Origin: Clavaria fumosa
Lineage: Eukaryota; Basidiomycota; Agaricomycetes; Agaricales; Clavariaceae
NCBI GenBank assembly: GCA_951802425.1
Contig: OX637794.1
Coordinates: 5,208,001 to 5,272,000 of the forward strand
DNA: 64,000 bases
Reading direction: 5' to 3'
The notes under the pieces are model-generated. The model saw nothing but the letters and a program-made list of their open reading frames with translations. It did not search any database and had not been told where the DNA came from. Shown here piece after piece: positions 12,327-43,066 of this stretch (the stretch's first letter is position 1; the number at the start of each line of letters is the position of its first letter). The position numbers were made by a program, and so were the translations under genes.

Positions 12327-12331
12327 CTGCT

Positions 12332-16837: not shown

Positions 16838-16870
16838 CACCCCCTTCAGCACACCCACCCCCTATCCAAA

Positions 16871-17034
16871 AGGCCTAGCCGATTTTGACTGATGCCCTTT
16901 TTATGGGCCCAGCCGATCGTCGGCCGAGATATAGCTTTATAGGCTTGGCCGATCAACTTGATATACCAAAATCCTGCCAGGCATACAGGGATCCCATGGT
17001 AATGATGATACCCTTTCAAAAGGGCTGGCCGACA
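16871..17034 (+). promoter_or_regulatory. Subterminal repeat motif, four copies
   Basis: A 14-bp motif recurs in the same orientation close to the terminus: AGGCCTAGCCGATT at 16,871, GGGCCCAGCCGATC at 16,905, AGGCTTGGCCGATC at 16,941 and AGGGCTGGCCGACA at 17,021. The mirror copies lie at 43,020-43,033, 42,986-42,999, 42,950-42,963 and 42,870-42,883. Short subterminal repeats of this kind commonly bind the transposase. The binding role is inference. Confidence 0.65.
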
Positions 17035-18163
17035 CCCATTTTAGGAACCAGTGTAGAGGGTCTGAAGCACCCTATTCAAACATTTCTCTCACTTACATGA
17101 CAAATTAGATCAAAAAGCTGGGGATAAAGCATATGCACAAGATTAGGAAGCAAAGATCAGATGTGCTATTTGATAGATATGTAAATTACAAGGTCATCTG
17201 CATCATTTGAGACTCCTTATCATCTGAGACTCCTCCATGACAACTTAACATAGTTGGGTGCGATGAAAACAAATATGCCTTCCAATAGGTCTTCAAAGGG
17301 TAGAAGCAAATGTACCAATCGAATATGCAATGGAGCCATTATAAACTAGAGTGAAATGTGGTTGTCAACTGAGTCAGGATATTCTTTGGAAAAGGATGGG
17401 CCTTAATATCCTTTCTGAAGAGTATTCAAATCCACTTTGAATACATGTTCTAAAGGAGAATGTATTGTTATTGTTCAAATATTCTTGCAATGTAGAATGT
17501 ATTGTTATTGTTCAAATATTCTTGCAATGTAGAAGTTGTGCATGTGAGTCTGTTATCACACCTTGTGATTATATCATTCTGTGGCTGTGCCCGGAATCCC
17601 GGGTGTGACAGTCACACTGTGACCAACTCTGCATAAGAGTATTCAAATCCACTTTGAATATGTGTTCTAAAGAAGAGGAGAATGTATTAGAATTGTTCAG
17701 GATGAGCCTTTGTACATAAAAATGATCCATTGTGGTCTAGAATTAAATTGAGGAAGTGATGCAAAGCAGTATATAATCTGATATTCCTTATAAAGAGACA
17801 AACCATTATAAAAGGACCCACATATGTGGTTCAATGGGGCACACTCCACCTTCAACAATCTAGTGGGAATAATGAAGGAGGATATTATTATCAGATATTG
17901 CTTATAAAGGTATGAATCTTCTGAACAGCATGATGCATCTAATAACAAGACTCAAATATGCTTTCTGATAGGCACAGGTTCTTCAATGATGTAATGCAAA
18001 GCTGACTGATTCAGGAAGTGGATCATTATCTGAAATTCCTTAGAAAGGGCCAAACTATAGGCACCACAAAAGGACAGATTGCAAAGAATTATTAGGACCT
18101 AGTGAGACATCATGCAGATTGATATGCACTACAAATGACTGTCACCAGTGTCAAGGATGATTT
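17035..18163. other. Outer non-coding part of the left arm
   Basis: No gene in about 1.1 kb between the subterminal motifs and the 3' end of the arm gene. It holds the 37-bp direct duplication and one copy of the recurring motif gtgtgacagtcacactgtga with a CCCGGG-like core (17,580-17,690). The same stretch is mirrored at 41,741-42,869. Confidence 0.6.
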
Positions 18164-20271
18164 TCAGTGCTTCACCCTTGGTCGCAGTACCCGCTTCTTG
18201 GCATCCATGGAAGCCCTCTCTCTAGCCCTGGTCCTATATTGCTTAGACCTCTCCTCCTCCTCTTCATCATGGTATACCCTTTTCCTCTTGGGCAGGCTGG
18301 GCCCTGCCTCCTTGTGGATCTGAACTGCCATATGAGCAACAAGGCCATGAACATCTCTATGCACACCCACATCATCCCACATCCCTTGTTCTCCTGTCCA
18401 AAATTCCATTATCTGTATTGTATTTATGCTGGACTGGAAAATTCTCACCTGGATGTTGCCTGTCATGGTCACCTTCTAACCCATTCCCCTCAATACCATC
18501 ACCCCTTCGCATATCCACCTGCTTGCTCAGACAGGATTCTTCTGCATCACTATCAGGGGGAACAGAAGCCTCAACCCTATCATCATTATCCCCATCATAG
18601 ATGCACCCCGAATCACTGTCTGACTCATCTGAGCCAATGTCTTCACTATGTGCATTTCAAATGTGCATTGATGATGATGATGATGATGATAATGATGATA
18701 TGAGAACACTCACTCAGTACTGATATGGACAGGCTGGACCTCTCGTTCTTTCCCCTTCTTGAGGGAGAGCCTCTTCACCTCTTTGTCAGATGACAATGAT
18801 GGCTCTTGTTCAGGTTGCTGGTGATAGTTGACTAGATGCCTTGATGGCTTCCCTCTCTGGTGCTGTGGGAGAACATATTGAAACCGTAATATTTTCTGGC
18901 CCAAAGTCTGTCGGTGATGCAGGAAATCACAGAGCCTTCTGACATCGACATATTGCATTTTTGAAGGCTCGCGAATTTGCATTCCCTCTGGAAGGTATTC
19001 ATGAGGAATAAACTTGTGTGGAGCATCAGCTATCAGTTGCCAAGGGACAGCAACCTTCTTGTTTTTTGTTGTATTGCCTACATGTTGGAAGTAACTTGTC
19101 AGACTTGGACTATTGAGCAAGACAGACTCACGATAAGTGATAGTAAAAAATGACCGCAAAATTTCTTTGAGTTGTGCGAGTGGTAGGTTGAGTTCCAAAG
19201 GAAGAATGGGCCATCCCTCATGATCTGTTAGCAAATCCCATGGCACACTAATATCTCTTCCTTTCCTTGATAGCATCTCCTCTTCATCAACAAAAGGCTT
19301 CCTTTGTAACTCATCTGAAATCCTGTCAGTACTTCCCCAACCTTGGCTTCACATCATTTTCTCACCATTCCATGTCTCAGCCAAATATTTATCCCACTCC
19401 TCCCACACCTCACAACCAACTTTGTGAAATTGTACCTTGAACCCACTAGTCACAGGTCCAGGGGTCTGAATCCTGGAGCATGTATACAGAGAATTAATCT
19501 GATGGACCAGTGGGCATGCAATTGAGACTCACTTTGCCTTCTTTATATTCCCTTTCTCATCTTGCCAGCCAGTCAACATAAATAATTCAACACCCATCTG
19601 CTCCTTTGCAAAACGGGCAAACTTCAGGGCCTCATGCATAAATTTGCGAGAAGCCAATCTCCAAGCAACATTTCAGCCATTCTACTGGTTGAGAAAGGTA
19701 AATTAAAATACTCACTCTCTCTGCACAGGAACTGGGACAGGCTCCCTATTCCATTTCTCCACCAACCCCATGTATTTCTGATGCTCCTCTTGTGTTAGCT
19801 CTTGACAAATCTCAGTCCTAGCACGACGATATGAGCTGAGGAACTGGACTGATCCCCTCTCAGCATTTGACAACTCCTGGGCCCTGGCATTGATAATCCC
19901 CTTCTTGCACTGCTCCACAACACGCTGGAGGGTCCACCTCTGTCGTTTGCTGAACTGAAGGCCTTGGTTGCCATCATCTTCTGAACCAGAAGACTCCTCC
20001 CCTCCACTGACAGCCCTGCGGTTATTGTGGAGCCAATTGCGAATTTTCTATGAACAGACAAACATCAAATCAACTCAGGAGACACATAAAATGCATAGGT
20101 TACGGTGCTAAGATCCTCTGGGACACATTTGTTGTCCTGCTCAGCTGAATCCTTGATTTTCGCTTTGATTTGCTTGACAATTTCGAGGCGGTCTTTTGAG
20201 TTTGCCTGTCTGTAGGCTACAAGACTTTCTGTGAGTATTTTGGTATACTCTGGGGTCGTCCACCGTGTCAT
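18164..20271 (-). CDS. Arm gene, left copy: probable DNA-binding protein
   Basis: Mirror image of 39,633-41,740; see that entry for the exon model. It reads outward toward the left terminus. The only protein difference from the right copy that I found is Glu instead of Asp in the KKGKERxVQPVHIS segment near 18,745. About 60-90 bp upstream of the start lie two TCACGTGAG palindromes (20,329-20,357), which are plausible transcription-factor sites. Having two complete copies means that loss of one arm by recombination still leaves the gene. Confidence 0.8.
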
Positions 20272-20535
20272 TTTCTTTGCTGCCTAACTGATAAAGCAGT
20301 GGTGTTGTTGGGAAGCAAGAGGTGGTGTGTCACGTGAGAAAATAACTTGGCTCACGTGAGTCACTTGTCACGCGTTGTGACTGTGACTTGCTGAGGCTGT
20401 GCCCGGGACCCCGGGTGTGACAGTTACACTGTGACCGTAACTCTCCATAACAATATGCAAAATGTCCTTTGAATATGTGAGCCTTGTGTATTTTTTTAAT
20501 GTACGAAATTCCACAGCAGTCACATCTTACAGCCA

Positions 20536-21350: not shown

Positions 21351-23104
21351 CCATGTCTGCCCCAATCATCCTTCCTTGTGCTGCTGTCCGTGTGGGTGGA
21401 AACACCAGCAACCCCAAATCCTTGGTTGCCTCGTTTCAAGTCCAGGGTGCCATGTAAGTACTTTTGTTCTTGTCCATTCAATCTCCTCACTGAGTTGTGA
21501 AAGGGCCGCAATGACTTTGACAGGCATGGGGTTTCCCCAAGTACAAGTTCGCTTAGAAAGGGATTCATCAGCTTGTAAAGTGAGTCTCCCCAAACTGCAG
21601 GATAGGCATTACTAATGACATTAGATGAGTCACCCTGATAAGAAAGGGCGTCATGTGGTCATGGTCCTCCATGTCAATCTGGTTCGACCTTTGAAACCCC
21701 AATTAGCACAGTTTTGGGGCAAGACTAAAGGTATGTACTTTTGAAAGCTTGCTCCATGTCTGTCTGAGAGGATCTAGGATGGGTACTGTTTCCAAAACTA
21801 TTTCTCCTTTTTGACCAAGAATCAAGTCTCTGGAGTCAACAAACATATGAAGCGTTTGTTCAATCTGTCAAGCCTAACTTTCCGGGAGACACATGGCAAT
21901 ATCTTAGGTATGTGGCTTGTTTTGAAAGCTAAATTTCAACATTAATGATTGGCAATATCATAAGACCTGAGGAATCCGAAGCTGCATGGGTATCTGGTGG
22001 GACAACATCAGGGTAGATCAATAACCTCATGTAATCAATATATTTGACATATTTTTCTCATTGTAGTGTTGGGAGCACACATATGCTTCTAGGTCCAGTT
22101 CAATTGAAAGATATTGAACTTGACCAACTCAAGGCTGGTCAATGGATAGGGGGAGATATTGTCAACTTTGCACTTCAGTACGTCAACCAATGTTCAATTG
22201 TTAACAATGCTCAAGGTGGACAGAGAGACATACAAAGCATTGGAAACAGGGGCATCTGGAATATGGCTCGCAAATACATATTTCCTTCCAGTACTGAGGT
22301 AATTTCACCCCTTAATGATGTGGGTGAAAGCTGATCATTTATTAGAAGAAAGGATGGCACCAGAGATATTATCGCATGGCTTCCAGAATCTGCACACAAA
22401 TGCAGATACTGGATTATTCCTGGGTTCAGTGAGGAACTGTACGTGGCTGATATCTTGTTGGAATTTATGGGGATGCTATACCTATTACAGGAAGCATTGG
22501 TTTACCATAATTGTGGCAAACCCAGGCCATTGCTTTCTAGTCGATCAGCCAGATGGTAACTGGGGATGGTGAGTGTACCATTTCTTGCAATATTTTTGGT
22601 ACTAACATCTTTACAGTACCATTGTCATACTTGACAGCTTTTTTCGTGACAGGGTGCATTCCAAAGACGCAAAGGCAATCCAAGACCTCTTCCGAGAGCT
22701 TGGGCATCAACAGGGCCTAAAGTACACCAAGGACCCAAAGGTTATCCAACCAAAGGTTTGTGGCAAATTGTGCAAAAAAGGGTGCTTCATATATTTTCAT
22801 ATGTTCTTGCTTAGGTTCCAAAACAGAAAAACGGAGATGATTGTGGCATATATGCGATCCATTTTGCAAGGCTGTGGTTGCATGAAGGTGACAGATTAAT
22901 GGATGTGGTGCTGGTAATTGGATATTTCTTTTCTTCTTCTAATGTCATTTCAACATCCCTTAGAACCCCTTGATGTCTCAACAAGACATTGAACAAGCAT
23001 GGAAGTGCTGGAGGATTGGTGGGCTTCGGACAAGGCTACAAGAAGAGATCCTCACCGTTGCAGAGAAGAGTTGGTTTGAGCATGAAAAACAAAGGATAGT
23101 CTGA
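21351..23104 (+). CDS. Ulp1-like SUMO protease (peptidase family C48)
   Basis: A multi-exon gene; the 3' half is clear and the first exons are tentative. The core shows the Ulp1 order. WIGGDIVNFALQYV is the substrate-binding entry (22,130-22,190). HWFTIIVANPGHCF carries the catalytic His (22,495-22,497). ILDSF carries the Asp (22,633-22,635). NGDDCGIYAIHFARLWL carries the nucleophile Cys (22,842-22,844). The last exon reads NPLMSQQDIEQAWKCWRIGG and ends at 23,104. C48 enzymes remove SUMO from conjugates; C48 domains are frequent passengers or partners of eukaryotic transposases. The predicted start MSAPIILPCAAVRVGGN is in the first open exon but other upstream starts are possible. It lies head-to-tail with the transposase gene, about 210 bp apart. 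Confidence 0.82.
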
Positions 23105-23202
23105 TTGCCATTTACAGGCCTTTCTTCTTGTAATTCTACTGCCACTGGAATTTTATTGTATCTTGTATTTGTATTACTCTAACACTTTGCAACATAGAAG
23201 TT

Positions 23203-23297
23203 GCATATGTGAGTTTTTCAGTCAGCCCAATCACATGACACAACACTTTGCATATGTGAGTTTTTCAGTCAGCCCAATCACATGACACAACACTTTG
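23203..23297. repeat. 47-bp direct duplication upstream of the transposase
   Basis: gcatatgtgagtttttcag and the bases after it occur at 23,203 and again at 23,250 (47-bp period). The repeat lies in the presumed transposase promoter, about 20 bp before its start codon. Confidence 0.75.
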
Positions 23298-23315
23298 TCC
23301 ACTGCAACCTCCGCC

Positions 23316-26300
23316 ATGCCAATCACTAAACGAAAAGAACATGCCCAGGAGGTTGAATTTGTTTCAATTTACAATAAATGACTGCGGAAATCCTTTTTGA
23401 AGTCTCGAAATGTCTACAAACAACCTGCTCAACCATACAACGTTCTACATAGCAAGCTTTGGTCTGGGACCTGCTCCAATGATTCCCTACTCCCCCAAAC
23501 ACCCCATAGCGAGGCCAAACAGACTCTGCCCTTTACATTTAATGCAGATGGTGACCCTGAGTGCATACTGGATTCTGATGCCCAAAGGATTTCACATAAG
23601 AAAAAGCAAGGAAAGGTGAGGACTCCAAGTTGTTCTCTGTATGCTGAAGTATCTGAAAATGTACACATTCAGACTCAGAATGAATTCCTTGAGGATTGGC
23701 TTCCTTTAAGAACAGCTTACCTGAGGGAAATCTTGGAATTAGAAGCTCCACCCCCTTCCAAAATTTGTCAGGTCTGCAATCAGAACAACTTCAAGTTTCG
23801 ATGCCGTGATTGTTTCTATCGGCCTGCAACTTGCTCCTCATGCTGCGCCAAATCTCACATCAATATCCCATTCCATTCCATTGACGTTTGGAATGGAGTT
23901 TGTTTCCTGCCATCTGATCTCCTACATGTTGGACTGGCGATTCACTTAGGGCATCAAGGCTCACCGTGTCCAGAATTCAAAGAGGAAGGGTACAGGGAGA
24001 AGGATCAATGGGAGCAAGATACCAGAAATGAACCTAATTTGGATAGGCCAGGTGCAAGTCTGCTTCTAGTTGTACACTCAAATGGAGTGTGCCGACGGAG
24101 CATCTATTACTGCCAATGCTCAAATGCTCCTTCCCACCATATACAGCTGCTTCAACACCGTCTGTTTCCTGCCAGCTATACGAAACCTCAAACAGTGTTC
24201 ACATTTGAAGTCCTTGGTCACTTCCATATTGAGGCTATGGAGTGTAAAACCTCAGCAGGCGCCTTTTACTCCAAACTAAAGAGATTTACCTCTAATGCTT
24301 TCCCAGACACTGTACCAGTTAGTATCCTCCTCTCCTTTTCCCTCCATTTGTATTGACAAGCTGCTGGCATTAGGATCGATACCGTGAACTAATGAGAGTA
24401 TCTCGTCAATGGCGAGACTTGACAAATAGAAAACGATTTGGTTTTGGGCACGACTTGGATAGGAAAACAGGAAATGGGGACCTAGCACTGTTTTGTCCTG
24501 CTTGCCCTCAACCTGGCATTAATCTTCCTAACAACTGGCAAAGTCAACCAGATCAGTAAGTCTTGTTTTCATTGAATGCATGTGAACCCTGATAAAGAAA
24601 TGCCAGATGGCTTTTCCGCAGATCCCTGGTTGTTGATGGAAATTTCTCAGCAGAACACTTGAAAATGCGAAGAGCAGAGAAAGATGTTAGGTTAGCAAAT
24701 GGAGAGGCATATATTGTAGAGGAGGTGAATTATCAACATCACCTCTCTGAGGGCTTAGAGATTCGAGATGTAGGTGTCTAACTTGGACTGGTCACCTGAG
24801 ATTCACTCCTACAACAGAAATCAAAATGCTCAAATCACAGGGCTATAAGCCAGTCAAATGCTCACTCAAGTCACCTGGAAGCCACAGGAATAGGGGCATG
24901 TGCCTGCTCACGGCATGGGTGTTTCGTGCCACATTCTGTGGTTGATTTCCAGAAGGGCGAGCGGTGAGCTGAAAATGTCTGTATATTTTAATTTGGTTGC
25001 AAATACTTGTTGCTTTTTCTTCCAGTCACATCAACATTGACTATGCAATTTGCCAAGCTATCAAATATAGGACAGAAGGGATGACAGAGACTTTAGTCAT
25101 CTATGATATCTGTTGTCAGTGGATTCGCAATTTCGACAAGAGGGTCCAGGGGAGCCAGTATCTGTCTGTGCACCCTTCAACAACAATCATACCTGCAGTG
25201 GGTAAATTTCACTTGGGGGCACACATTCGTTCCTGTTTCCCACTGTTCTCCTTGAACTTTGTTCATGGTGCTGGCCAACAAGATGGAGAGATTTTGGAGA
25301 CTCTGTGGTCAAACCTGAACAAGGTCTCCAGCAGCATACGGGCCATGAGCAAGGCACATCGGCACGAAATATTAGACGACTACATGCGAGATTCAAACTG
25401 GAAGAAAACAGTGGGTATTGGTGGGTATCAAAATTTTCTAAGCGAATTTGGGATAACTGAATATGCAATCTAGTGAAGGCCCTCCTGGCGAAGTACAATG
25501 CTGCAACAGAAGGTCTTCGACAAACCAAGATTGCATTCAATGATTTGAATGAAGGGATTGGATCAGAAGCAAGAGAAGAATGGATGAATTTAGAGCAGAT
25601 TGCTCTGCAAAATCGAGGGGAAGCCCTCAAAATATACGATATACAACTGGAAAAGAGTGAGTTGATATTCCTCACTTCATCACTAGAGACAGAAATCTGA
25701 AAATTTCAATATGAAGCACCAACTCTTGCAGATATCAGGCTAACTCTCTCAGCTAGGGAAAAAGAAACTGGAGTACCTTCAGGGATTACATCATTCCTGA
25801 CTCAAGGCATGGATCTGGAACATATTCAGTAAGTGACATCCAAGATGCTAAGCCTACACACATGCCAATGAGCCTCCAGATGTTCAATTGACCTAACCCG
25901 GAAGAGGAGACTCACAGCAGCTCAGAAGCAAAGCATTATTGATAAACAGAATGCACTTCAATCCAAAATTGAAAATTTCAACCAACGAGTCTATACTGTT
26001 CTGGGAGATTTCGAGTGGGATGACCAACACCAGGAGACCATGCCAGAAGACACTGGACCTAGAGAAGAAACACAGGATGATCCTCAAGATGGTGACGTGG
26101 AAGACCTGGACATGGACGAGCAGAATTTCATACAGAACAGGCTTTGGATGCCTTCTACGTTTGGCCACGACTTCTGCTTGAAAAATGGGTGGGAAAAATT
26201 TGTGGATCAAGAAATACAGCTGCGGGTGGTACAAGCAGAGGAGTCACTTGAAGGGCTCAGACTGGCAATCGGACACAAGTCGTTGCTTTACAAGATACGA

Positions 26301-26916
26301 ATTCGAAAATCCAAAACCCAGGCAAGCAAGACCAGGAGCCGCTCAGAACTCCTCCAAGTGAATGACAAGATCAAGGAGTATACTGGGAGGTACAAGTGTG
26401 CTAGGTCTGCCTTGATAAGCCTGGGAGCACCTGCACATGTACTTGAGAAGTTTCAAGTTCTCCAAGACACGGACTTGAAAGTTAACACAGATGTGGCAGA
26501 GGAAAACCGGATTGGGCAGCGAAATGATGCATTACCCTGGTTCTGGAGGATTGGGACTGGGGGGAATGCCAGGAACCCTTTGATGAATGAAAGTGAGTTC
26601 TTCGATATGTTAGCTTCCTCATATGTTTCTATGCTGACTGAAATAAGTATTGAGGGTGAACTGGCTGAGAGCAAAGGCTCGATATGACAGGTGGGAAGAA
26701 GAGATGTTATTGGTGAGACACGAAATGACATGGGCATTGGCATGGTATTCACACCAACAAAGGGAATGGGAGAGGAGGAGAGTCTGGGCAGAAACACAGT
26801 GCTTGCATGGTCACAGAAGCTATGCTGAGAAGCAGGCTATGGTATGGAAGTGGATGAAGGAGGCTGCATCTACTGCCTGGGGTGATATTTTGAGTCTACC
26901 ACAAGTCAAATCTTAG
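23316..26916 (+). CDS. KDZ-family transposase with CxC2 zinc cluster
   Basis: About ten exons, roughly 1,030 aa. The start is MPITKRKEHAQE, spliced to SRNVYKQP across a 51-nt intron. The CxC2-type cysteine cluster (CQVCNQNNFKFRCRDC, then CSSCCAKSH) lies at about 23,768-23,860. The RNase H-fold core follows: FGFGH and LFCPACPQPGIN, VVDGNFSAEHLKMR (Asp at 24,635-24,637), a zinc-like CACSRHGCFVPHSVVDF block, LVIYDICCQW (Asp at 25,105-25,107) and GAGQQDGEILETLW (acidic residues at 25,282-25,299). The C-terminus is charged, ending in RVNWLRAKARYDRWEEE and KWMKEAASTAWGDI. I followed the frame through every intron with no stop or frameshift, so the enzyme looks intact. It should act on the arm ends in the nucleus. 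It is convergent with the TET/JBP gene. Confidence 0.93.
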
Positions 26917-27027
26917 CTAGCCACATCAATTGTGGGGATACAAAGCACTGGAATTTCACCCAGACAGAAGCTCTTTTCCTGGAGTTCAGCAACAGTGATG
27001 AAGTGACCAGTTTCTATATAAATGTAC

Positions 27028-28203
27028 CTAGGTCAACAATTGCATGTACGTATTTTGAGTTGGGTAAGTTGGTCGTGGTATCTGTAGACGGTCATGAACA
27101 GAATCTTTCATGAAATGAGCAATGCACAATCGTTCGCCACCCTCCCAATCCATCACTTCATGCAGAAAAACTTTACCCGCAAATACAAGGACAGTTCCAG
27201 GATTGTAGGCAAATTGACCACCAAGTTCCTGGAGTGTCATGTATGCCTGCTTGTGAGTTCCAGCACTAACCAAAAGATCGTAGTGAGCCAGGCAGCCTCC
27301 CTTGTCGCGATGTGCAGGAGTCTTCCTGTTCACGATGACTTCCATTGCCGTAAAGATTGAGGGCCAAAGCTGCACATTCTTGTATGTTTTTGCCATTGCC
27401 ACCCCAGATTGCACTTGGTCAATGGCTGAGCTCCCAAAGTCATATTGTTCTGGTGCGACCAAGGCCATAATTGAATTGCACAGCTTCTCTGCATGTGCGA
27501 TTCCTCGAATGAAGGAGGAACCATATGCAGTCTGCAAGCTGGTCGAAGCATGCAGTTTATCACTGAGCTGTTGACATTGAGACAGTAAAACAAGGTAGTT
27601 ATGTGACAGCATTACCTGTTGCTGGCCTTGCATAAACCAGCCAGGAGAGAAGGACTTGATTCCGGCACCAAAACGACCTCCGCCTTCAGGTTCGACAAAT
27701 CCCGTAGTACGCCCAGCATTACTTGGCAAGTCTCTGTCCAGATGCTTGCTAATGTGCTCACACCCTCTGTTGTACTGCTCCTGTAAATTGGTTAGAAAAT
27801 ATGGTTCAAATTTGATTGCCTTATCTCACCACTCTAGCACTAGAAAGAATTCCAGGCAGAGCCCACAGCAAGATACGACCGTGCTTATCAATTATTGTGC
27901 AGGGTTCCTCTTGAACACCGAGGTCTTGAGGCTGCTTGAAATACTTGCTGAATTTCACCAAGGCTGCATCGAAATTATTGCTGCGTTTGGCTATGAGATT
28001 GATATGTTTCACACTGTCTGCAAACCGATCTATGTCCCATTCCGTTTGAACTGAATGGTCAAAGTGTTCAGCTGATTGTTGCAAGTCATTTAAGCTAACG
28101 CACTTGGGTTGAAGAGGGCATAGGCCACAGTTAGAACTACACGTTGTAGTTCTTCTTGAGTCACAGGTTGGTCGTCAGCATTACTCTCGTTGCTGGAATC
28201 CAT
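27028..28203 (-). CDS. TET/JBP-family 2-oxoglutarate/Fe(II) dioxygenase
   Basis: Four exons, including a probable 48-nt in-frame intron near 27,573-27,620. The double-stranded beta-helix core shows the HxD iron motif in NRKTPAHRDKGG (His codon 27,310-27,312), a strand QLGGQFAYNPGTVLVFAG-like segment, the distal His in FLHEVMDW, and the 2-oxoglutarate Arg in GERLCIAHFMKD. This arrangement, with its place beside a KDZ transposase, matches the fungal TET/JBP group, which oxidises 5-methylcytosine. The start ATGGATTCC at 28,203 is a choice; the frame stays open upstream to at least 28,255, so the protein may be longer. An intron of only about 32 nt near 28,085-28,110 is unusually short. The function follows from family knowledge; activity is untested. 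Confidence 0.87.
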
Positions 28204-28725
28204 GGCAACTCTCAATTCCTCAAGTTCGCCCCAAATTTTCAACCTTCCTTCAATTTTAGCTGGCTTAACAGGATTAAAAATTGATGACTTGCCTTGTCTT
28301 GAGTGGCTTTTGCATTTTATGAGTTACGTGCTTGCGTATCGTAGTGCGTAAGAGGCTCCACATGGTGCCTTTCAAAGTAGATGGCCTTGGGTGGGCATTA
28401 GACATCAACTCAGCTCAGTTAGACGATACATATGCATCACAAGGAGCATAATTGGTCCTCTTGTTTGAGCCAGATAAGTCAGTCTCTTGATGCTTCCTTT
28501 TGGCCATTGGATGAGCTGAATTCGCAAATCTATGTTAGGGGGTTTGACAGTCAACAAGGTCACATGACTCCTTTTTTTTCTATTCTTCTTTTGAATCAGC
28601 ATTTATATACTGCAACATTGGCAAAGACAAAGACGCGGTTGCACGTATGGTGCATATTTATGAGATAAAGGATGAATTGGGGACAGAGGTATGTGGCATG
28701 GGTTTTTAGGTTATATTGCCGTCAT
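28204..28725. other. Non-coding spacer with left copy of a 155-bp repeat
   Basis: No gene recognised. Positions about 28,588-28,743 (tgaatcagcatttatatact...) are repeated at 29,484-29,640 with a few differences, mostly CG/CA or CG/TG. Confidence 0.6.
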
Positions 28726-32437: not shown

Positions 32438-32662
32438 GGGTGGGAGGACGCTAACCACATGGCGGCTAGCAGTCCATCCCGGAGCCCATACGGCAACCCC
32501 AAGGTATGAGTGGGGTGAGAGGACGCTAACCACATGGCGGCTAGCAGTCCATCCCGGAGCCCATACGGCAACCCCAAGGTATGAGTGGGGTGAGAGGACG
32601 CTAACCACATGGCGGCTAGCAGTCCATCTCGGAGCCCATACGGCAACCCCAGGGTATGAGCA
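32438..32662. repeat. 75-bp tandem repeat, three copies
   Basis: ctaaccacatggcggctagc starts at 32,451, 32,526 and 32,601, an exact 75-bp period with one or two differences per copy. The period is a multiple of three, so the minus strand stays open with a 25-residue repeat (VAVWAPGWTASRHVVS...). Nothing else supports coding. Confidence 0.85.
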
Positions 32663-34980
32663 CAAGCAAGGCAAAATCACTTACAATGATGAGGGGTTGG
32701 GGGAGGTCGTCTGCATAATAGACGACACTCACATCCTTGGCCCAATTGGCCACCCCAGGTGGGTATGAATGAGGGTTGGTTGGGGCCGGCTCGCATCTAA
32801 GCCGCCACCAAACCAAAAGGCCCATACGGCCACCCTCTTCACATAAAATTCTGAAAAACCACATCAACGAGCACCACATCGACCAATAATGAGTCGCATT
32901 GGAATACACGCACCTCTGCAGGTGTCGAGCTAAGAGACACCTGATGACAGACAAGGGCAGCATTCCCTGTGCGGCACTGCAGTTGCCGCACAGAGAATGC
33001 TGTCCCTGTCCATCACGAACCATAAAATAGATGTCCCAGGCGGCGTGGCAGGAGGCTCGGTGGGCGGGTAGACAGGGGAAACAAGGCGGACAAGAGCGAC
33101 GAGGCGGACGAGAGCGATGAGGCGGACGAGAGTGACGAGGCGGACGAGAGTGATGAGGCGGACGAGAGTGAGGTGATGGAGCGGAAGACAAAAGATGGTG
33201 CGACCATCTTTTGTTTGTTTGTTTGATATCTAAGGCGATTCAACATTTGGCTCTGTTTGTTTATATTGATATGTCACATGATCTCAATAAATTACACGAT
33301 CACGTGTTGCCTTCTCACTGCCCTGCTCACTCCTGCCATGCCTCACCCGCTCGCTCCTCGCTCTGCCGCGTCTGACCCGCTTCTCGACCACCCGCTCTCT
33401 GCTCTGCTAATTCCAGTGCACCCAGTGCCCTGCTTCTGCCGCTTAGTGCACCCTGCACCCTGCCCACACCGCTTAGCACACCCTGCACTCCATCCACAAC
33501 ACCTGGCGCACCCCGCGTTCCATCCACACTGCCTGGGCCCTGCATATGCCATCTGGTGCACCCTGTACTCTGCCTACACCAACCCCGCCTTACTGCCCAC
33601 TCCCAACCTCATGTCAGCAATGGTGCGTTGTTATCCCATCCCCCTTCTCCCCTTGCTACTCTTTCAGCCTCACGGCAACCACGGCGGCAGCATCAACGAC
33701 AACGACAACGATGGTTGCATGGCCAGCAACGACGGCGGTGATGACAGTAATGGCGGCGGCGGCTGCATGGCCAGTGACGACGACAACGGCGGCAGCAGCA
33801 GCGGCCAGCGATGACGACGGCGGCGGTGGCGGCGGCACAGCAGCATGCGGCAGAAATGGCCCAAGCCCCCAACAGTGGTCATAGACCAATGTCAGGGACT
33901 GGGGCCATTGCGGCAGCGGCAGCAGCAGCAACAATGATGGCTACGTGGCCAGCGACGACAACGACGACGACAGCAGCGGCCATCAATAGTGACGATCGTG
34001 ACGGCTGCATGGCCAGCAATGACGACGGTGGCGGCGGCGCAGCAGCAGCAGCATTGGCACGGCCAGCAAGGACGACGAGGACGGCGGCGGCAGCGGTGGC
34101 GCGGCAGCATGCAGTGATAATGGCCCAAGCCCCCAACAGTGGTCATAGACCAATGGCAGGGACTGGGGCCATTGGGCAAGGAGCGGCTGGGCGGAGAGTG
34201 GCAGTAGGAGCAGCAGGGCAGGGAATGGCAGCAGGGTGTGGAATGTGGAACCGGGGTGGCAGCAGGGCGGGGAATGGGTGGGCGACGAGCAGGTCACAGA
34301 ATTGGTTGGCGACAAGCAGGTCAGGATGGGAAGCGGGTCAGGGATCAGGGACGGTAGCAAGGCATGGAGGAACAGAGGTGGCAGCAGGGAGGAGGGAGCA
34401 GGGGCAGCAGCACGGCGGTGATGCATGACAGATCGAGGGTGGCAGCAGGGCGGGGAGCGCGACCGGGCAGGGAGTGTGGCAGATGAGGAGCATGGCAGGG
34501 GACCATGGCGGGGCAGGGAGCAGGCCGTTCCCTGCCCCATCAGACACATGATGAAGCAGACCAATCAGGGGTGGCGGCAGGGCAGGGAGTGATGAGATGG
34601 GGGTGATGTAATGCAACAGGGGATGGCGGTGGTCAGGAGGTGGAGGAAGTCTCCAAGGACAGGAAGGTGTCATCCAGCAGGGACGCCTAGTGCTGATATC
34701 GCTGAAAATTGTACTACAAATGACATTATTTTTCTCATGTTACCTTTCCTTTCATTTCGGAGCCTTCTGTGCTCATACACTTCCATGTCATTAGAGGGAG
34801 ACCACCCGGATTGTGCTACATTCAGATTTCAAGCAGAAGCACAAGAGCAGAGGCCCGTGACAGTGTAACAGGTGTGACATGTAACAGTGGGGATCCCGGG
34901 CACTGCCACCGTCAATTTCATCCTTTTTTAGTACTTGAATCCTTGTTACGTACTTGAACTTACTCCCAAACCACACTTCA
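32663..34980. other. GC-rich simple-repeat region of the element
   Basis: No gene supported. It holds an 18-bp repeat, gaggcggacgagagtgac, about five copies (33,095-33,178). A perfect 12-bp stem hairpin (acaaaagatggt/accatcttttgt, loop gcg) lies at about 33,190-33,216. Trinucleotide-rich GCGGCA/GACGAC sequence runs from 33,660 to 34,120, and GGCAGCAGGG-type repeats from 34,190 to 34,560. A partial copy of the GTGACAGTGTAAC...CCCGGG motif is at 34,855-34,905. It directly precedes the JmjC gene. Confidence 0.6.
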
Positions 34981-37900
34981 ATGTCTACTTCGATGAACAA
35001 ATCCTCTTCCTCGACAAGCAAAATGTCGACTTCAGCATTGCTCACCATCTTCGATCCCCAAACAGTCCGCACGAGTGCTGTTTTCCAAAACTATCCTTGG
35101 TTGACCGACATCATCATGAAGCCTGGACTTCTGGAAAGCAACATTGCTACTTGGCTGGGACAGCACCACAACTTAGGAGAGGAGCAAGTTTCCCTCTGCA
35201 AGGTTCAATTCAAACTTATAAACTTAGGATTATTTGCTTATCAAAGCTAATCGTCTAGTCGATCGCTCAGTCTTTGGATCGTTTTGGACCTGGAAGCACG
35301 GCACTGAAGAAGGAAAGAGCAGTCAACGAATACTTCCGGGCATCATACAGTGACTTGGTTAGCAGAGAGAAATGGGAGAAACACGACACATCAGCTCTCA
35401 TGAGCGCTGCTCATTTCGTTTTTCGTCATGCCCTTTTGGACCGCTTGGCATTTTCGATTGTTGAGGCTTCTCCATCCCAGCTAACGCCTCGATCTGAATT
35501 GCCTAAGATGCCCAAGAAGTTTAGCGATGTGCGTTAAATTTCTTTCCCTTATTCCAAGTTTCTTATCTTTCATAGTATATTGGTACCATTAAGGATTGGC
35601 TCAAGCCCATTGAAAAAGCACAGGGGTCTCAAAGCTTTCAAGCCATGGATCCATTGACGAATTCTGCGGCGTATTTTGGCACCTCCCTTCCTGCACACCC
35701 TTCGCCAAAGCAGGAACAACTGATCAAAGCTGTAAAGTTCCTTGGTGGGGGCCTGGAACGAATGCGAGACATCCAGGTCAAGTCCGTACTTCTAAACTTT
35801 GAGATGATGGCATTTGCCATCACTTGGTTTGGCTTGGTTTGTGTCCAGCAATTTTTTTGTTGGGAATTATAACTAACAATCTCTCAGAATAATGCCACAG
35901 GTTTTGCTGAGTCGACCCAGGACTGGGTCAATATTTTAAATGAGTGAGAGCAACATAGTTTGCCTTATCCAAATTTCCAACTAAGTTTTTTCACACAGAC
36001 AATTAGAAAGCGAGGGTCTTCCTCTGTCTTCCAGCCTTGTCTCAAGGCTCACAGATCCACGTCTTGGCCCGATGCTCTTCGAGCATGTGCGCGGACTCTT
36101 CCACTACTGCCTCTCTGTCAGTCCCCTTTTTGCCCTGACAACAAGGGCATTTGACCAGTCGCAACTGCGACAAAGTTTCTTGGTATCGGTGAGTGCCTCA
36201 TTTTTATGTCAGATTGTGTTTACGAAACAGGCAATATAGACTGCAATGTACTTGGGTAACGAAAAGCCTGCGTTTTTGGGATTGACGGAGAAAGCACTGT
36301 GGAGAGCTCTGATGCAAACAAGCATCACCGGCGACTCATCAGTGGCCCTGAATGGCTTCCTTACAGAGTTTCAAGACCTTCAGGTGCAGTTCAAGGGGCC
36401 AGAAATTCAGATGGATTGGTATTCTCCATCCCGTATGTTATTTTGATCTTTTCGTCCCTGAATGAAACTGACTGCAAAGAAAGGGCAAGTCCAACGTGTC
36501 ATCACAGCTCCCGAACCATGTTCCATCGAAGAAGAAGCAGAGCCCATCATTGCTCCTGAAGCTGGTCCCCCGGAGCATGTCGAAGACATCATTCCTGCTC
36601 TGGAAGCAGATCCCCAGGGCGTCACTTCTGCTCATGAAGCAGGTCTGATTGAGCAAACACCAATTTTCCCCATGCTCGAATACGACCAGCAGGAGCTCTC
36701 AGACACTCAAGATGCTGAAGAAGCTGAAGGTGCATTGGAGAAGCCACTGAAACACGAGGTTCATCGTCCAACGCGAAGGGCAGCAAAGAGACTCCGGCAT
36801 GAATCAGACCAGGAGAATAAGGATGACGAGTTGATCCCCGATGAGGAAGCTGTGACGAGGAAAGGGAAAGGAAAGGCGACACAGGATACACATGTGGGCC
36901 AAGGCAAGACAAAGCCACCTGGACCCATCCACCAGGGTAGAAAGGCTGCCTTGAAGCCAATTCGGAGTATCATTGACCTGACGGTCAAGGTATGACTTAT
37001 ATTGACACCCCAACAAATGCTGATTGAATTGTTTTATTTAGCACGTAGAGAAAGTGGAGGAGCTCTCCTCTTTACCCCTCCCCAAGGTAAGCAAAATCTC
37101 AACTACTGCGTAATATTTTAATTCACACAATGCAGATGGAGAATCACTCCATCAAAGTCAAAATGTATGATGCAAATCCTGATACCGAGCCAACCGTCTA
37201 TGAGCATTTCACAACTTCAGATTCAGTATGTTTAACACTTTTTTTCATGGATATCTCTCAAAATAAAGCAGGCATTCCGCGAGTATCCTGTCCTAACGGA
37301 CATAATAGAAATGGTCGAAGAGGAATATGTCAATCAGGTCCCTAAGCATCGTCTTCCAACTGCCAGGTCGCGAACATTCCATCCAGATGCGTCTGCGATA
37401 TTCGTCACAACCTGGACTGAGTTCATGAAGATGACTAGTCTGGAAATTCAAGAGGTGTTCCGTCGTCGACATATTCTTATTACGAATACGCCAATTTCAA
37501 CCCTCGACTTTGATGAGGAGGGATTATCGACATTGGCTCCTCTACATCAGGAATGTGTGTTCCAAGGTGAGTCTAAAATATTTTTCAAGTTGATTCATCT
37601 AAGTCAGCTTCTATAGTTGCAGAGATGCGAAAGCACTCTGATGCAAATCTGCTCCGCACTGGGACACTCCACGATTTGCTGGAGTCAACACGTGATATTA
37701 CAAAACGACGGATTTTGAATGGCCTTGACTTCCCGATGGGAAGCCTCAGCCTCCCTCCACCACCTCGATTCAGGCATGTCCCATTTGTTGCTCTGACACA
37801 TGACAACTGAAACAATAACTAAATCAGCGCTTTTGCAACTCATGAGTGGGCACGCCACCAAACCCAAAAGATGGATGGCTTCGCAAACCAACCTGACAAA

Positions 37901-39239
37901 GACAACCTGATCTGGGGCATTGCAGCCACTGGTGGGACCATCAGCATGCCCCATATTGATGATGTTGGCCTTGCAGTTGTTTCGACTGTCATGTCAGGGT
38001 CAAAGTGGTGGGTGGTGATGCGCCGCCGTACAGACGCAGAAGACTACGACTATCGCGGCAATATCTTTTCGACGCATGCCTTCCCCCTCAGTTGGGGTGA
38101 TTGTAGCACCGGAAAAGAATTTTTATGTGCGGAGGCTATACACCTGAAGACAGGAGATATTTTGTGAGTTGCAATAATTATCACGTGCAATATTTACTGA
38201 CAATCCTACAGTTTCATGCGTCCTGGCACACTCCATTTTGTGCTTGGCCCAGAGCCGACGATTGTTTACGGCCGGCACTTTTATTCCGCATCCACGATAG
38301 CTCGCAGCTGTGCTTCAGCCCTGCATACGTTTGTGCTCAACCCGATAATCACCAATCAAGAGCACCAATCGACGACCACATACTTGTGCAAGATGATGGC
38401 GGTCTGGGTTGAGCACTATGTCACGGGGAAATCCAAATATGGTAGAATCTCTCCATCATTATGTATGTCATCTGATAATTGTTTTAGCATTTGGTGAGGC
38501 ACTTGCCCACATCCCCGATGTCACAACAAGACATGGACTCCTCGATATTATCATGGTGGGGAACATGCTTGAATTTGCGATAGCCCTTGGCCTCAAGTCA
38601 CATGGGAGGAAACCACTGCCTGAAATACTTGAAGAGCAAAACGTTGCGATGTGGCGATACCGCATCTTCCAGAGCTGGTTCATCGAACGATACATTCTTG
38701 AGATTGGTGGTCAAGGGGTGAACCCATCATATCTCTTCTACAAATTGCTCATCCAGTTTGGCGCGGCACTTTGTTCTTACATGAAAAGGTGGGAGAAAAA
38801 GGCACCACTCACAATCACTGCACAGCAGGTGATTGCAGCAGTGCTTGAGCACCTTCGGAAAGACTGGCAAGACCTTCTGGATGCCTTCCAGAAGTTGCTC
38901 CATGACGATACCAGTGCTGGTAATTGGTTCTCCTGGGATGGCCCTGACTTCCACATATTTCCCCGCGACAATACTCAGGTTTGGACGGAGCTGGAAGATT
39001 TGCTGGATGATCCAATTTATGAACAGGTCTCTGAAGAAGAGCAAGAGGACAGTGATGCAGGAGATGACCGTTCTGAGTTGGGGACAATACGTTCTAAGAG
39101 GCCCCTCTCCCCACATGATGGTATGTGTTTCATTATATACTTTCATCTAGACGCAGCAGATTTTCTAATCAATACAACAGATAATTCAGACATGGAATGG
39201 ATGGTCCGTGTGAGACAGAGGCGCGGTTTCAATGCCTGA
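34981..39239 (+). CDS. JmjC-type 2-oxoglutarate/Fe(II) dioxygenase
   Basis: About a dozen exons. The N-terminus is Ser-rich (MSTSMNKSSSSTSKMSTS), followed by a helical region, then an acidic and basic linker (36,484-36,990) with a nuclear-signal-like RRAAKRLRHES. The catalytic part is at 37,850-38,400. GTISMPHIDDVGLAVV holds the HxD iron motif (His 37,952-37,954, Asp 37,958-37,960). Then come SGSKWWVVMRR, the GDILFMRPGTLHFVLG strand, and VYGRHFYS with the distal His (38,276-38,278). This is the JmjC/cupin arrangement of histone demethylases and hydroxylases. The C-terminus is helical and acidic. Frame is kept over each intron I checked. The substrate cannot be told from sequence; residues for 2-oxoglutarate are only partly clear. 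Confidence 0.78.
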
Positions 39240-39368
39240 CCCTAGCCATTGATTTTGATTAGACATAGAATAGAGCACATGTACTAGGAAGCACTGACTG
39301 AGTCATCGGAACCCTTGCTTGATGTATATATGCATTTACTTTTTTTGAAAGAAACTAACAGTTCGTAA

Positions 39369-42300
39369 TGGCTGTGAGATGTGACTGCTGTGGAATTTCG
39401 TACATTAAAAAAATACACAAGGCTCACATACTCAAAGGACATTTTGCATATTGTTATGGAGAGTTACGGTCACAGTGTAACTGTCACACCCGGGGTCCCG
39501 GGCACAGCCTCAGCAAGTCACAGTCACAACGCGTGACAAGTGACTCACGTGAGCCAAGTTATTTTCTCACGTGACACACCACCTCTTGCTTCCCAACAAC
39601 ACCACTGCTTTATCAGTTAGGCAGCAAAGAAAATGACACGGTGGACGACCCCAGAGTATACCAAAATACTCACAGAAAGTCTTGTAGCCTACAGACAGGC
39701 AAACTCAAAAGACCGCCTCGAAATTGTCAAGCAAATCAAAGCGAAAATCAAGGATTCAGCTGAGCAGGACAACAAATGTGTCCCAGAGGATCTTAGCACC
39801 GTAACCTATGCATTTTATGTGTCTCCTGAGTTGATTTGATGTTTGTCTGTTCATAGAAAATTCGCAATTGGCTCCACAATAACCGCAGGGCTGTCAGTGG
39901 AGGGGAGGAGTCTTCTGGTTCAGAAGATGATGGCAACCAAGGCCTTCAGTTCAGCAAACGACAGAGGTGGACCCTCCAGCGTGTTGTGGAGCAGTGCAAG
40001 AAGGGGATTATCAATGCCAGGGCCCAGGAGTTGTCAAATGCTGAGAGGGGATCAGTCCAGTTCCTCAGCTCATATCGTCGTGCTAGGACTGAGATTTGTC
40101 AAGAGCTAACACAAGAGGAGCATCAGAAATACATGGGGTTGGTGGAGAAATGGAATAGGGAGCCTGTCCCAGTTCCTGTGCAGAGAGAGTGAGTATTTTA
40201 ATTTACCTTTCTCAACCAGTAGAATGGCTGAAATGTTGCTTGGAGATTGGCTTCTCGCAAATTTATGCATGAGGCCCTGAAGTTTGCCCGTTTTGCAAAG
40301 GAGCAGATGGGTGTTGAATTATTTATGTTGACTGGCTGGCAAGATGAGAAAGGGAATATAAAGAAGGCAAAGTGAGTCTCAATTGCATGCCCACTGGTCC
40401 ATCAGATTAATTCTCTGTATACATGCTCCAGGATTCAGACCCCTGGACCTGTGACTAGTGGGTTCAAGGTACAATTTCACAAAGTTGGTTGTGAGGTGTG
40501 GGAGGAGTGGGATAAATATTTGGCTGAGACATGGAATGGTGAGAAAATGATGTGAAGCCAAGGTTGGGGAAGTACTGACAGGATTTCAGATGAGTTACAA
40601 AGGAAGCCTTTTGTTGATGAAGAGGAGATGCTATCAAGGAAAGGAAGAGATATTAGTGTGCCATGGGATTTGCTAACAGATCATGAGGGATGGCCCATTC
40701 TTCCTTTGGAACTCAACCTACCACTCGCACAACTCAAAGAAATTTTGCGGTCATTTTTTACTATCACTTATCGTGAGTCTGTCTTGCTCAATAGTCCAAG
40801 TCTGACAAGTTACTTCCAACATGTAGGCAATACAACAAAAAACAAGAAGGTTGCTGTCCCTTGGCAACTGATAGCTGATGCTCCACACAAGTTTATTCCT
40901 CATGAATACCTTCCAGAGGGAATGCAAATTCGCGAGCCTTCAAAAATGCAATATGTCGATGTCAGAAGGCTCTGTGATTTCCTGCATCACCGACAGACTT
41001 TGGGCCAGAAAATATTACGGTTTCAATATGTTCTCCCACAGCACCAGAGAGGGAAGCCATCAAGGCATCTAGTCAACTATCACCAGCAACCTGAACAAGA
41101 GCCATCATTGTCATCTGACAAAGAGGTGAAGAGGCTCTCCCTCAAGAAGGGGAAAGAACGAGATGTCCAGCCTGTCCATATCAGTACTGAGTGAGTGTTC
41201 TCATATCATCATTATCATCATCATCATCATCATCAATGCACATTTGAAATGCACATAGTGAAGACATTGGCTCAGATGAGTCAGACAGTGATTCGGGGTG
41301 CATCTATGATGGGGATAATGATGATAGGGTTGAGGCTTCTGTTCCCCCTGATAGTGATGCAGAAGAATCCTGTCTGAGCAAGCAGGTGGATATGCGAAGG
41401 GGTGATGGTATTGAGGGGAATGGGTTAGAAGGTGACCATGACAGGCAACATCCAGGTGAGAATTTTCCAGTCCAGCATAAATACAATACAGATAATGGAA
41501 TTTTGGACAGGAGAACAAGGGATGTGGGATGATGTGGGTGTGCATAGAGATGTTCATGGCCTTGTTGCTCATATGGCAGTTCAGATCCACAAGGAGGCAG
41601 GGCCCAGCCTGCCCAAGAGGAAAAGGGTATACCATGATGAAGAGGAGGAGGAGAGGTCTAAGCAATATAGGACCAGGGCTAGAGAGAGGGCTTCCATGGA
41701 TGCCAAGAAGCGGGTACTGCGACCAAGGGTGAAGCACTGAAAATCATCCTTGACACTGGTGACAGTCATTTGTAGTGCATATCAATCTGCATGATGTCTC
41801 ACTAGGTCCTAATAATTCTTTGCAATCTGTCCTTTTGTGGTGCCTATAGTTTGGCCCTTTCTAAGGAATTTCAGATAATGATCCACTTCCTGAATCAGTC
41901 AGCTTTGCATTACATCATTGAAGAACCTGTGCCTATCAGAAAGCATATTTGAGTCTTGTTATTAGATGCATCATGCTGTTCAGAAGATTCATACCTTTAT
42001 AAGCAATATCTGATAATAATATCCTCCTTCATTATTCCCACTAGATTGTTGAAGGTGGAGTGTGCCCCATTGAACCACATATGTGGGTCCTTTTATAATG
42101 GTTTGTCTCTTTATAAGGAATATCAGATTATATACTGCTTTGCATCACTTCCTCAATTTAATTCTAGACCACAATGGATCATTTTTATGTACAAAGGCTC
42201 ATCCTGAACAATTCTAATACATTCTCCTCTTCTTTAGAACACATATTCAAAGTGGATTTGAATACTCTTATGCAGAGTTGGTCACAGTGTGACTGTCACA

Positions 42301-43066
42301 CCCGGGATTCCGGGCACAGCCACAGAATGATATAATCACAAGGTGTGATAACAGACTCACATGCACAACTTCTACATTGCAAGAATATTTGAACAATAAC
42401 AATACATTCTACATTGCAAGAATATTTGAACAATAACAATACATTCTCCTTTAGAACACGTATTCAAAGTGGATTTGAATACTCTTCAGAAAGGATATTA
42501 AGGCCCATCCTTTTCCAAAGAATATCCTGACTCAGTTGACAACCACATTTCACTCTAGTTTATAATGGCTCCATTGCATATTCGATTGGTACATTTGCTT
42601 CTACCCTTTGAAGACCTATTGGAAGGCATATTTGTTTTCATCGCACCCAACTATGTTAAGTTGTCATGGAGGAGTCTCAGATGATAAGGAGTCTCAAATG
42701 ATGCAGATGACCTTGTAATTTACATATCTATCAAATAGCACATCTGATCTTTGCTTCCTAATCTTGTGCATATGCTTTATCCCCAGCTTTTTGATCTAAT
42801 TTGTCATGTAAGTGAGAGAAATGTTTGAATAGGGTGCTTCAGACCCTCTACACTGGTTCCTAAAATGGGTGTCGGCCAGCCCTTTTGAAAGGGTATCATC
42901 ATTACCATGGGATCCCTGTATGCCTGGCAGGATTTTGGTATATCAAGTTGATCGGCCAAGCCTATAAAGCTATATCTCGGCCGACGATCGGCTGGGCCCA
43001 TAAAAAGGGCATCAGTCAAAATCGGCTAGGCCTTTTGGATAGGGGGTGGGTGTGCTGAAGGGGGTG
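39369..43066. repeat. Right terminal inverted repeat, 3,698 bp
   Basis: Reverse complement of 16,838-20,535. The inner limit is set by loss of pairing at 39,368 and the outer limit by loss at 43,067. It includes the outward gene at 39,633-41,740 and the mirrored subterminal motifs near 42,870-43,033. Confidence 0.95.
39633..41740 (+). CDS. Arm gene, right copy: probable DNA-binding protein
   Basis: Seven exons: 39,633-39,800, 39,857-40,188, 40,246-40,371, 40,432-40,538, 40,590-41,190, 41,259-41,455 and 41,511-41,740. They total 1,761 nt, giving 586 aa with no stop. MTRWTTPEYTKILTESL is followed by KIRNWLHNNRR, which resembles the third helix of a homeodomain. Then come helical segments (KRQRWTLQRVVEQCKKG, KFMHEALKFARFAKEQMG), a mid-region LTDHEGWPILPLELNLP, an acidic stretch (SDESDSDSG) and a basic C-terminus (LPKRKRVYHDEEEEE, AKKRVLRPRVKH) fit for nuclear import. 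It resembles expanded unnamed Agaricomycete proteins, but no function is established. Placement inside the terminal repeats, with the motif-rich ends beside it, suggests a role in recognising the ends; that is inference. Confidence 0.8.

Follow-up and report, generated by a model that had tools for sequence, protein, structure and literature searches.

A 26-kb Kyakuja-type KDZ transposon of Clavaria fumosa with giant terminal inverted repeats and a conserved set of putative chromatin-modifying genes, including a candidate histone H3-tail mimic

In a 64,000-nucleotide stretch of the Clavaria fumosa genome (assembly GCA_951802425.1, 48.76 Mb in 17 contigs; contig OX637794.1, C1:5208001-5272000 in our numbering), hereafter called the window, we found a 26,229-bp DNA transposon at positions 16838-43066. 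Besides a KDZ transposase, the element is predicted to encode a TET/JBP dioxygenase, a JmjC-like protein, a Ulp1-type SUMO protease, a protein that joins a histone H3-like N terminus to a PHD-like finger (H3m), and a further gene, here the end-gene, present once in each of its two terminal inverted repeats (TIRs). In our view, the element is probably a giant KDZ transposon of the Kyakuja type that is autonomous and has been active recently, and its conserved cargo probably serves as an anti-silencing module.

The inverted arms of the element, 3,698 nucleotides each, differed at 3 positions over the 3,650 bp compared and were flanked by 7-bp target-site duplications (TSDs). A genome query with 1,163 bp of arm sequence returned at least 10 inverted pairs spaced 25.9-44.2 kb apart, additional single ends, and at least 5 short pairs with a spacing of 7-10.4 kb; pair counts are lower bounds from a search that scored 40 of 183 candidates. 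Seven of the 10 long pairs were read as sequence (copies A, the window element, to G), and H, I, and J were followed by match positions only. Copies A-G were 25.9-31.2 kb long, 97.6-100% identical by block, and arranged in one common interior order, with most of Ulp1 removed by a 2.1-kb deletion and a 6.9-kb insertion present in copy G, and a 1.5-kb insertion in copy F. Termini read CACCC...GGGTG in all seven, the ends being characterized by the sequence CACNCCCTTCAGC. The 7-bp TSDs were exact in five copies (A-E); copy F matched at six of seven bases (CTTGTCG/CTTGTTG), the differing base being itself a CpG-to-TpG change, and no TSD was found for copy G. The initial annotation had described one bounded mobile unit and proposed a search for copies with the same ends and gene order, on the view that accessory genes inserted separately, or an interior order never conserved between copies, would point to a chance nest. 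Searching the host genome, we recovered such copies, and the recurrence of ends, order, and TSDs among the seven strongly supports a bounded unit, as does a diverged 38.4-kb element, described below, that has separate ends and a separate TSD. A chance nest of unrelated insertions, for which we found no favorable point, is therefore extremely improbable. Judged by these copies, the element transposes as a single 26-kb unit and makes 7-bp duplications.

Several features speak to the recent history of the family. Differences between the two arms of one copy numbered 3, 3, 4, 11, 12, 29, and 70 for copies A to G (of about 3,600 positions), and these counts suggest that copies A-C are young. Between arms of different copies, the counts were at least 3 (A-B) and at least 11 (C), then 13 (D), 12 (E), and 35 (F). 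Arms were nearer to each other within a copy than across copies in C, D, and F, tied in A, B, and E, and showed the reverse in G; the pattern in C, D, and F is a weak sign that arms may be homogenized when the element moves. A 93-nt tandem unit (window 28848-29033), present in 2 copies in A, 3 in B, and 1 in C-G, can serve to mark how the copies are related. Of the five short pairs, we read the one at C1:4235028-4242089, which proved to be a 7,062-bp palindrome with 99.3% self-complementarity and the TSD CCACTCA. By blastn, it shares 660-806 bp at the termini and a portion of the minisatellite region with the element, and none of the genes. Since it carries element ends without genes, we assign it as a non-autonomous derivative. 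TSDs of 7 bp were thus found in the window family, in the small element read, and in the 38-kb element.

The window element has six different predicted genes (Ulp1, KDZ, TET, H3m, JmjC-like, and end-gene; Table 1), and all of their spliced models, which are DNA-based predictions, are open in the window copy. In Pfam, the spliced KDZ model matched PF18758 (E 1.8e-52) and CxC2 (E 1.2e-24), the TET model matched Tet_JBP (E 4.3e-18; 66.8 bits against a curated cut-off of 34.9), and the Ulp1 model matched Peptidase_C48 (E 6.7e-11; 42.9 bits against a cut-off of 20.7). By eye, we recognized an HxD...H motif in TET and a His/Asp/Cys triad in Ulp1; the Gly and Asp of the TET segment HRDKGG....D are, also by eye, spaced like residues 331 and 337 of CcTET (PMC12730594). 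The end-gene has a homeodomain-like N terminus by eye and a weak GTF2I-like match under the cut-off (E 0.018), and its homologues (53-73% amino acid identity; 75 of 361 candidates scored) form inverted pairs that flank other loci. For the JmjC-like protein, the Pfam JmjC model scored 15.1-17.2 bits on three diverged cores, under its curated cut-off of 24 (E 0.007-0.033), with alignments spanning nearly the whole model in all three, and the H, D, and H of the putative Fe-binding HxD...H motif were invariant in four sequences (alignments A1/A4). A single-sequence AlphaFold model of this protein had a pLDDT of 39, and its homologues in a large protein set were six single-exon fragments, all located after the JmjC core. 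A search of NCBIfam gave nothing useful. Of the gene inventory in the initial annotation, the KDZ, TET/JBP, Ulp1, and H3-tail genes and the two end-genes were borne out, whereas the JmjC assignment stayed below threshold. Gene models placed in the minisatellite at 31300-34900 resemble low-complexity read-through and were not counted as genes.

The same gene set is present in a second, deeply diverged element and so constitutes a conserved module. This element (C1:3240705-3279067) was found by tracing one end-gene inverted pair outward to its ends. It is 38.4 kb long, starts with CACACCCTTCAGCG, has the TSD CCCTGTT on both sides, and its arms match at 99.6% of positions across 3,796 bp or more. 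Its predicted cargo comprises two KDZ genes, a TET gene, a tail-less H3m paralogue, an ARTKQSA-tailed protein starting with MARTKQSAKRSSG, a JmjC-like gene, and Ulp1; amino acid identity to the window element by block is 27-67% for JmjC-like and 34-59% for Ulp1. Gene order and orientation are unlike those of the window element, so that the gene set is conserved and its arrangement is not. Presence of the set in so different a relative makes the cargo look like a working toolkit rather than a chance pile-up. A sub-family at C3:485-503k, C4:3963-3981k, and C10:3191-3207k also holds Ulp1, KDZ, TET, JmjC-like, and, in opposite orientation, H3m genes, the H3m tails being altered or stopped, and another family (C3, C5, C6, C8, and C10) has KDZ, TET, and H3m ordered as in the window.

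Proximity across the genome followed the same pattern. H3m loci lay within 15 kb of a TET match in 37 of 46 cases (mean of 2.0 and maximum of 6 in 300 random draws), tails lay within 15 kb of a KDZ match in 33 of 41 (random 3.6, maximum 10), and JmjC-like loci lay within 15 kb of an H3m match or tail in 19 of 25 (random 0.9, maximum 4). The input consisted of 64 TET matches (8 of them under the cut-off), 71 of 133 H3m and 40 of 135 JmjC matches (those omitted being apparently additional exons of loci already counted), 150 of 185 KDZ matches, and 41 tails, from which two canonical H3 genes were excluded. The random draws covered contigs up to C13, with approximate lengths for 4 of the 13, and the underlying counts are lower bounds (candidates scored: 96 of 256 for H3m, 43 of 286 for the JmjC protein, and 150 of 248 for KDZ). 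Since the proximity counts treat copies of one family separately, the comparison between families is the independent evidence. Between the window and other families, NG86 dN/dS was 0.114 and 0.149 for the JmjC core, 0.105 for H3m exon 6, and 0.125 for TET (dS 1.3-2.8); in seven further comparisons, among them the two with the 38-kb element, dS was saturated and pN/pS was 0.24-0.37. These comparisons show the signature of purifying selection on the predicted JmjC, TET, and H3-tail genes between families. Host genes captured as passengers of no use to the element could account for the debris it contains (LTR, LINE-like, and minisatellite) and for the presence of at least one broken gene in six of the seven copies read. 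Yet such passengers would not be expected to recur as one set in an element so deeply diverged, to show dN/dS of 0.1-0.15 where measurable, or to keep H3 tails conserved as protein despite different codons, and we give this explanation little credence.

The most distinctive member of the set is H3m, whose N-terminal sequence, MARNKQTAQRSTGGRALR, was read directly from the window DNA; H3-like tail peptides include ARNKQTAQRSTGG and ARTKQTPKKSTGG. A genome-wide DNA pattern for M-A-R-[T/N/K]-K-Q-T-A with one mismatch permitted was found at 43 places, as opposed to 0 for the reversed control. Two of these are canonical H3 genes, told by KAPRKQLASKAARK past an intron, and the tail types were ARNKQTA (18, the window family), ARTKQSA (13), ARTKQTP (5), ARTKQTA (4, one with a stop), and ARSKQTA (1). 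Five families have H3-like starts of the form AR[TNS]KQ, with A1, R2, K4, and Q5 identical in all five, and position 9 is R in the window family, K in C5, T in C9, and R in C1 and C3. By eye, 12 (window), 13 (C5), 11 (C9), 10 (C1), and 12 (C3) of residues 1-17 are identical to host H3. The C1 and C9 tails have 11 residues in common, 10 of them encoded by different codons, and identity over the whole H3m protein drops to 28% among families (rows assembled by eye). A decayed copy (L039, C2:4086600-4088600) has the tail MAQTKQMPKKSTGG, consistent with CpG changes from a ARTKQTPKKSTGG-type tail.

Searched against PDB, a tail-plus-PHD profile of the five families matched CHD4 (2.7e-14), PHF21A (1.3e-6), AIRE (2.1e-6), and TRIM33 (8.7e-6), and its first 35-42 positions matched histone H3 at 5e-6 to 6e-5. 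In alignments A1, A2, A4, and A5, the non-window rows were assembled by eye and exon junctions were guessed (a few residues at the junctions are inexact, about six of them in the row for L035, for instance, and the row for L042 skips one in-frame stop); the search was therefore repeated on the tail and PHD exons only (A6) and on the window sequence alone, which gave weak matches to CHD4 (0.0018), AIRE (0.0066), and histone H3 (0.072). An engineered H3-linker-PHD chain, PDB 2l43, was matched at E 0.042. The Pfam PHD model did not match the window copy and matched one of six family members at E 0.018; in the window PHD, Phe stands in place of one Cys, and the Zn-ligand set is incomplete. Many of the matched PHD fingers read H3 unmodified at K4. 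The middle domain of H3m has a His and a Cys-Gly that are invariant in four tailed proteins and lie 43 residues apart in the window sequence. A caspase-like (clan CD) peptidase was considered for this domain on account of the strand-His/strand-Cys spacing; it had no match of that kind in Pfam or PDB and is retained as no more than a lead. Among 8000 candidates scored in a large protein set, no H3m homologue was found at E <= 1e-3.

An H3-like start might instead be what remains of an H3 exon that was captured, or a signal for nuclear import or stability, and the 12 of 17 window tail residues identical to host H3, together with the loss of K9 in four of the five tails, would suit such an origin. 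We find this rather improbable, however, since A1, R2, K4, and Q5 are kept in five of five families at the very N terminus of a protein whose overall identity falls so low, and since the tail is linked to a PHD of the class that reads H3.

The initial annotation had assumed that the host methylates CpG in repeats, and the element copies lend this indirect support. We counted 701 substitutions in the unique interior of the seven copies, of which 485 were CpG transitions; this corresponds to 0.41 per CpG site as compared with 0.0095 per other C or G, a 44-fold excess. Copy A alone had 35 CpG transitions and 9 other substitutions. The host genome also has DNA-methylase matches at two loci and one partial SRA match. 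The CpG excess is most simply read as the footprint of cytosine methylation on these elements, although a process resembling repeat-induced point mutation would leave a similar mark.

Escape from silencing is the likeliest role of the cargo. Where repeats are methylated at CpG, as inferred above for this host, the encoded proteins would keep the element transcribable and its ends accessible. TET/JBP would oxidize 5-methylcytosine and perhaps N6-methyladenine, the JmjC-like protein would remove methylation from a histone, and Ulp1 would free chromatin factors of SUMO. Removal of Met1, which is expected, would leave H3m with the H3-like N terminus A1-R2-x-K4, and this could occupy readers of unmodified H3K4, either the PHD of H3m itself or UHRF1-, DNMT-, or Rpd3S-like host proteins. 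In four of the five families read, the tail would do so without K9, the lysine that silencing depends on; just as plausibly, the tail may act as a switch by binding the PHD of its own protein. The transposase would act on the CACCC...GGGTG ends and would also mobilize non-autonomous palindromes, of which one was read. According to PMC7060239, the H3-like N terminus of the host factor PAF15 engages the PHD of UHRF1, a reader of the H3 N-terminal ARTK, in methylation maintenance, so that a transposon product with a free H3-like N terminus could plausibly occupy such readers. Like PAF15, H3m is a non-histone protein with an N-terminal H3-like tail; unlike H3m, PAF15 promotes methylation and does not come from a transposon. 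More tentatively, and with rather less confidence than in the anti-silencing role as a whole, we suggest that H3m is a dedicated transposon histone mimic, combining A1-R2-x-K4 with a PHD of the H3K4me0 class, that jams H3-dependent maintenance of methylation or heterochromatin, beside TET, JmjC, and a deSUMOylase, across diverged Kyakuja-type lineages.

The cargo could also serve transposition itself, through target choice, assembly of the transposase complex, or copy-number control, with the PHD reading target chromatin and the H3 tail acting as an intramolecular switch for that PHD. There is a parallel in RAG/RAG2, a transposon-derived recombinase system with an H3-reading PHD, in which the RAG2 PHD reads chromatin in V(D)J recombination; we know of no H3-tail mimic, TET, or JmjC in that system. 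The best PDB matches of the H3m PHD are readers of the H3 N terminus, and tail and PHD sit in one chain, as they do in the engineered 2l43. A role in transposition nonetheless leaves the joint presence of TET, JmjC, and Ulp1 unexplained, and we regard it as unlikely, if the foremost of the competing explanations.

Several observations weigh against the anti-silencing interpretation. Beyond its sub-cut-off Pfam score, the JmjC-like protein had no match in PDB, and the JmjC type with about 50% identity was read at two loci only. A complete set of open models is found in the window copy alone (one of seven), with open models in 2 of the 7 copies for JmjC-like, 3 for KDZ, at least 4 for Ulp1, 6 for TET, and 6 for H3m. 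Within the family, synonymous and nonsynonymous counts gave no signal of selection and were near-neutral, as expected for recent copies, so that the case for function rests on conservation between families. Some diverged families have tail-less H3m paralogues; for two of them (L035 and L036), the same elements or loci also hold a tailed protein, and the conserved Cys is absent from both, which suggests that the tail-less form is perhaps an inactive partner. Finally, the copies show heavy CpG decay, so that once settled they are not shielded, and TET does not prevent CpG mutation in them; the host appears to counter-attack at CpG without being stopped by the cargo in the long term.

Table 1. 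Predicted features of the transposon in the window
Feature	Position	Strand	Remarks
Left TSD	16831..16837	.	ACTGCGC
Left TIR	16838..20535	+	Starts with CACCCCCTTCAGCACACCC
End-gene, left copy	18164..20271	-	7 exons, 586 aa
Ulp1/C48 SUMO-protease-like gene	21661..22913	+	Core exons; 3' end uncertain; Pfam C48
KDZ transposase with CxC2 cysteine cluster	23410..26916	+	10 exons, 1006 aa
TET/JBP dioxygenase	27028..28405	-	4 exons, 403 aa; HxD motif
Duplicated 193-nt segment and 93-nt tandem repeat	28564..29655	.	LINE-like by eye; no Pfam match
H3m	29694..31271	-	6 exons, 438 aa; putative H3-tail mimic, PHD-like finger, invariant His/Cys domain, Zn-ribbon-like C terminus
Low-complexity/minisatellite region	31400..34900	.	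~31400-33025 also in the 7-kb non-autonomous element
JmjC-like protein	35400..39239	+	13 exons, 1079 aa; one predicted GC-AG intron; upstream exons possible
Right TIR	39369..43066	-	Ends with GGGGGTG
End-gene, right copy	39633..41740	+	
Right TSD	43067..43073	.	ACTGCGC

The surroundings of the element in the window are rich in other repeats. Two near-perfect palindromes, at 1225-3500 and 51506-52845, flank it on both sides; they have arms of 1,129 and 661 nt that are 100% complementary, with 18 nt between, are 98-99% related to each other, and resemble foldback-type elements. Gypsy-type pieces (gag, RNase H, and integrase by Pfam) occupy 6515-11787 on the minus strand, flanked by 98-100% direct repeats (5367-6106 and 11786-12720) that are not in one register, and a reverse transcriptase match (RVT_1, E 1.5e-14) lies at 49652-50500 on the minus strand. 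Tandem arrays are found at 3585-5194 (655-nt spacing, three units), 53348-53971 (104-nt, five), and 61718-61975 (21-nt, nine), the last inside a frame with weak coiled-coil matches. Elsewhere in the genome, eight sub-threshold TET/JBP matches (26.3-32.5 bits) lie towards contig ends, with no listed KDZ match within 15 kb (C10:59155, C1:5273111, C4:21061, C11:2822034, C8:50823, C2:4877557, C7:160147, and C8:3347590); the match at C1:5273111 is 1.1 kb past the right end of the window. They possibly represent a second, subtelomeric TET type.

To place the element among known transposons, we compared it with published KDZ families. Kojima 2025 (PMC12730594) describes TET+ Kyakuja of Agaricomycotina with 7-bp TSDs and 5'-CA..TG-3' termini, and Kyakuja-1/2_LB of Laccaria without TIRs; TSDs of 8 bp are given for Zisupton and a Dileera example (PMC12730594) and for KDZ1 (PMC12810828). 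Like TET+ Kyakuja, the window element combines a KDZ transposase with TET/JBP, 7-bp TSDs, CA..TG ends, and, by eye, the residue spacing of the CcTET AG type. Unlike Kyakuja-1/2_LB, it has 3.7-kb TIRs with a gene in each. The absence of TIRs is a described trait of these two families and not a stated definition of the group; because of it, we call the element Kyakuja-type and not a Kyakuja. By its transposase, 7-bp TSDs, and CA..TG ends, it is a Kyakuja-type KDZ element, with the giant TIRs as its main departure. The Cryptococcus KDZ1 (PMC12810828) is an active KDZ DNA transposon of about 11 kb with a CxC cluster, 241-bp TIRs, and 8-bp TSDs; the window element is likewise a KDZ DNA transposon with a CxC cluster but, at 26 kb, carries a chromatin cargo that the KDZ1 passages do not mention.

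The cargo also has partial counterparts. SET methyltransferases occur in Phytophthora HarbingerS and MuDR elements, and an anti-silencing protein in plant Vandal MuDR elements (PMC12730594); like these, the window element carries predicted histone-modifying or anti-silencing genes, but where they are summarized there as having one such gene per element, it joins a predicted DNA oxygenase, a JmjC-like protein, a deSUMOylase, and an H3 mimic. JmjC, Ulp1, and PHD have no mention in the available text of PMC12730594, and titles and abstract openings of open-licence PMC papers included no transposon with such cargo or with a histone mimic, an earlier mention in Iyer 2014 being possible. Relative to known Kyakuja, the element is new in its giant TIRs, each of which holds a predicted gene, and in a predicted chromatin cargo of several genes that includes a putative H3-tail mimic.

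The study by Iyer and colleagues of 2014 reportedly established the linkage of TET with KDZ and is said to have noted extra proteins in some elements, including one with a divergent HMG domain; this HMG protein possibly corresponds, we presume, to the end-gene here. To our knowledge, that study did not describe the set of JmjC, H3 tail, and Ulp1. Among genetic parasites, influenza H3N2 NS1 uses 'ARSK' as a short mimic of H3 residues 1-4; the NS1 mimic is four C-terminal residues in an RNA virus, whereas that of H3m is N-terminal, spans about 17 residues, and belongs to a DNA transposon. We know of histone H3 mimicry otherwise only from viruses and host factors, and the element described here would add a transposon-encoded, N-terminal H3 mimic. 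TET-bearing transposons are known; an element family in which genes apparently directed at DNA, histones, and SUMO stay together, along with a histone-tail mimic, makes the anti-silencing idea directly testable.

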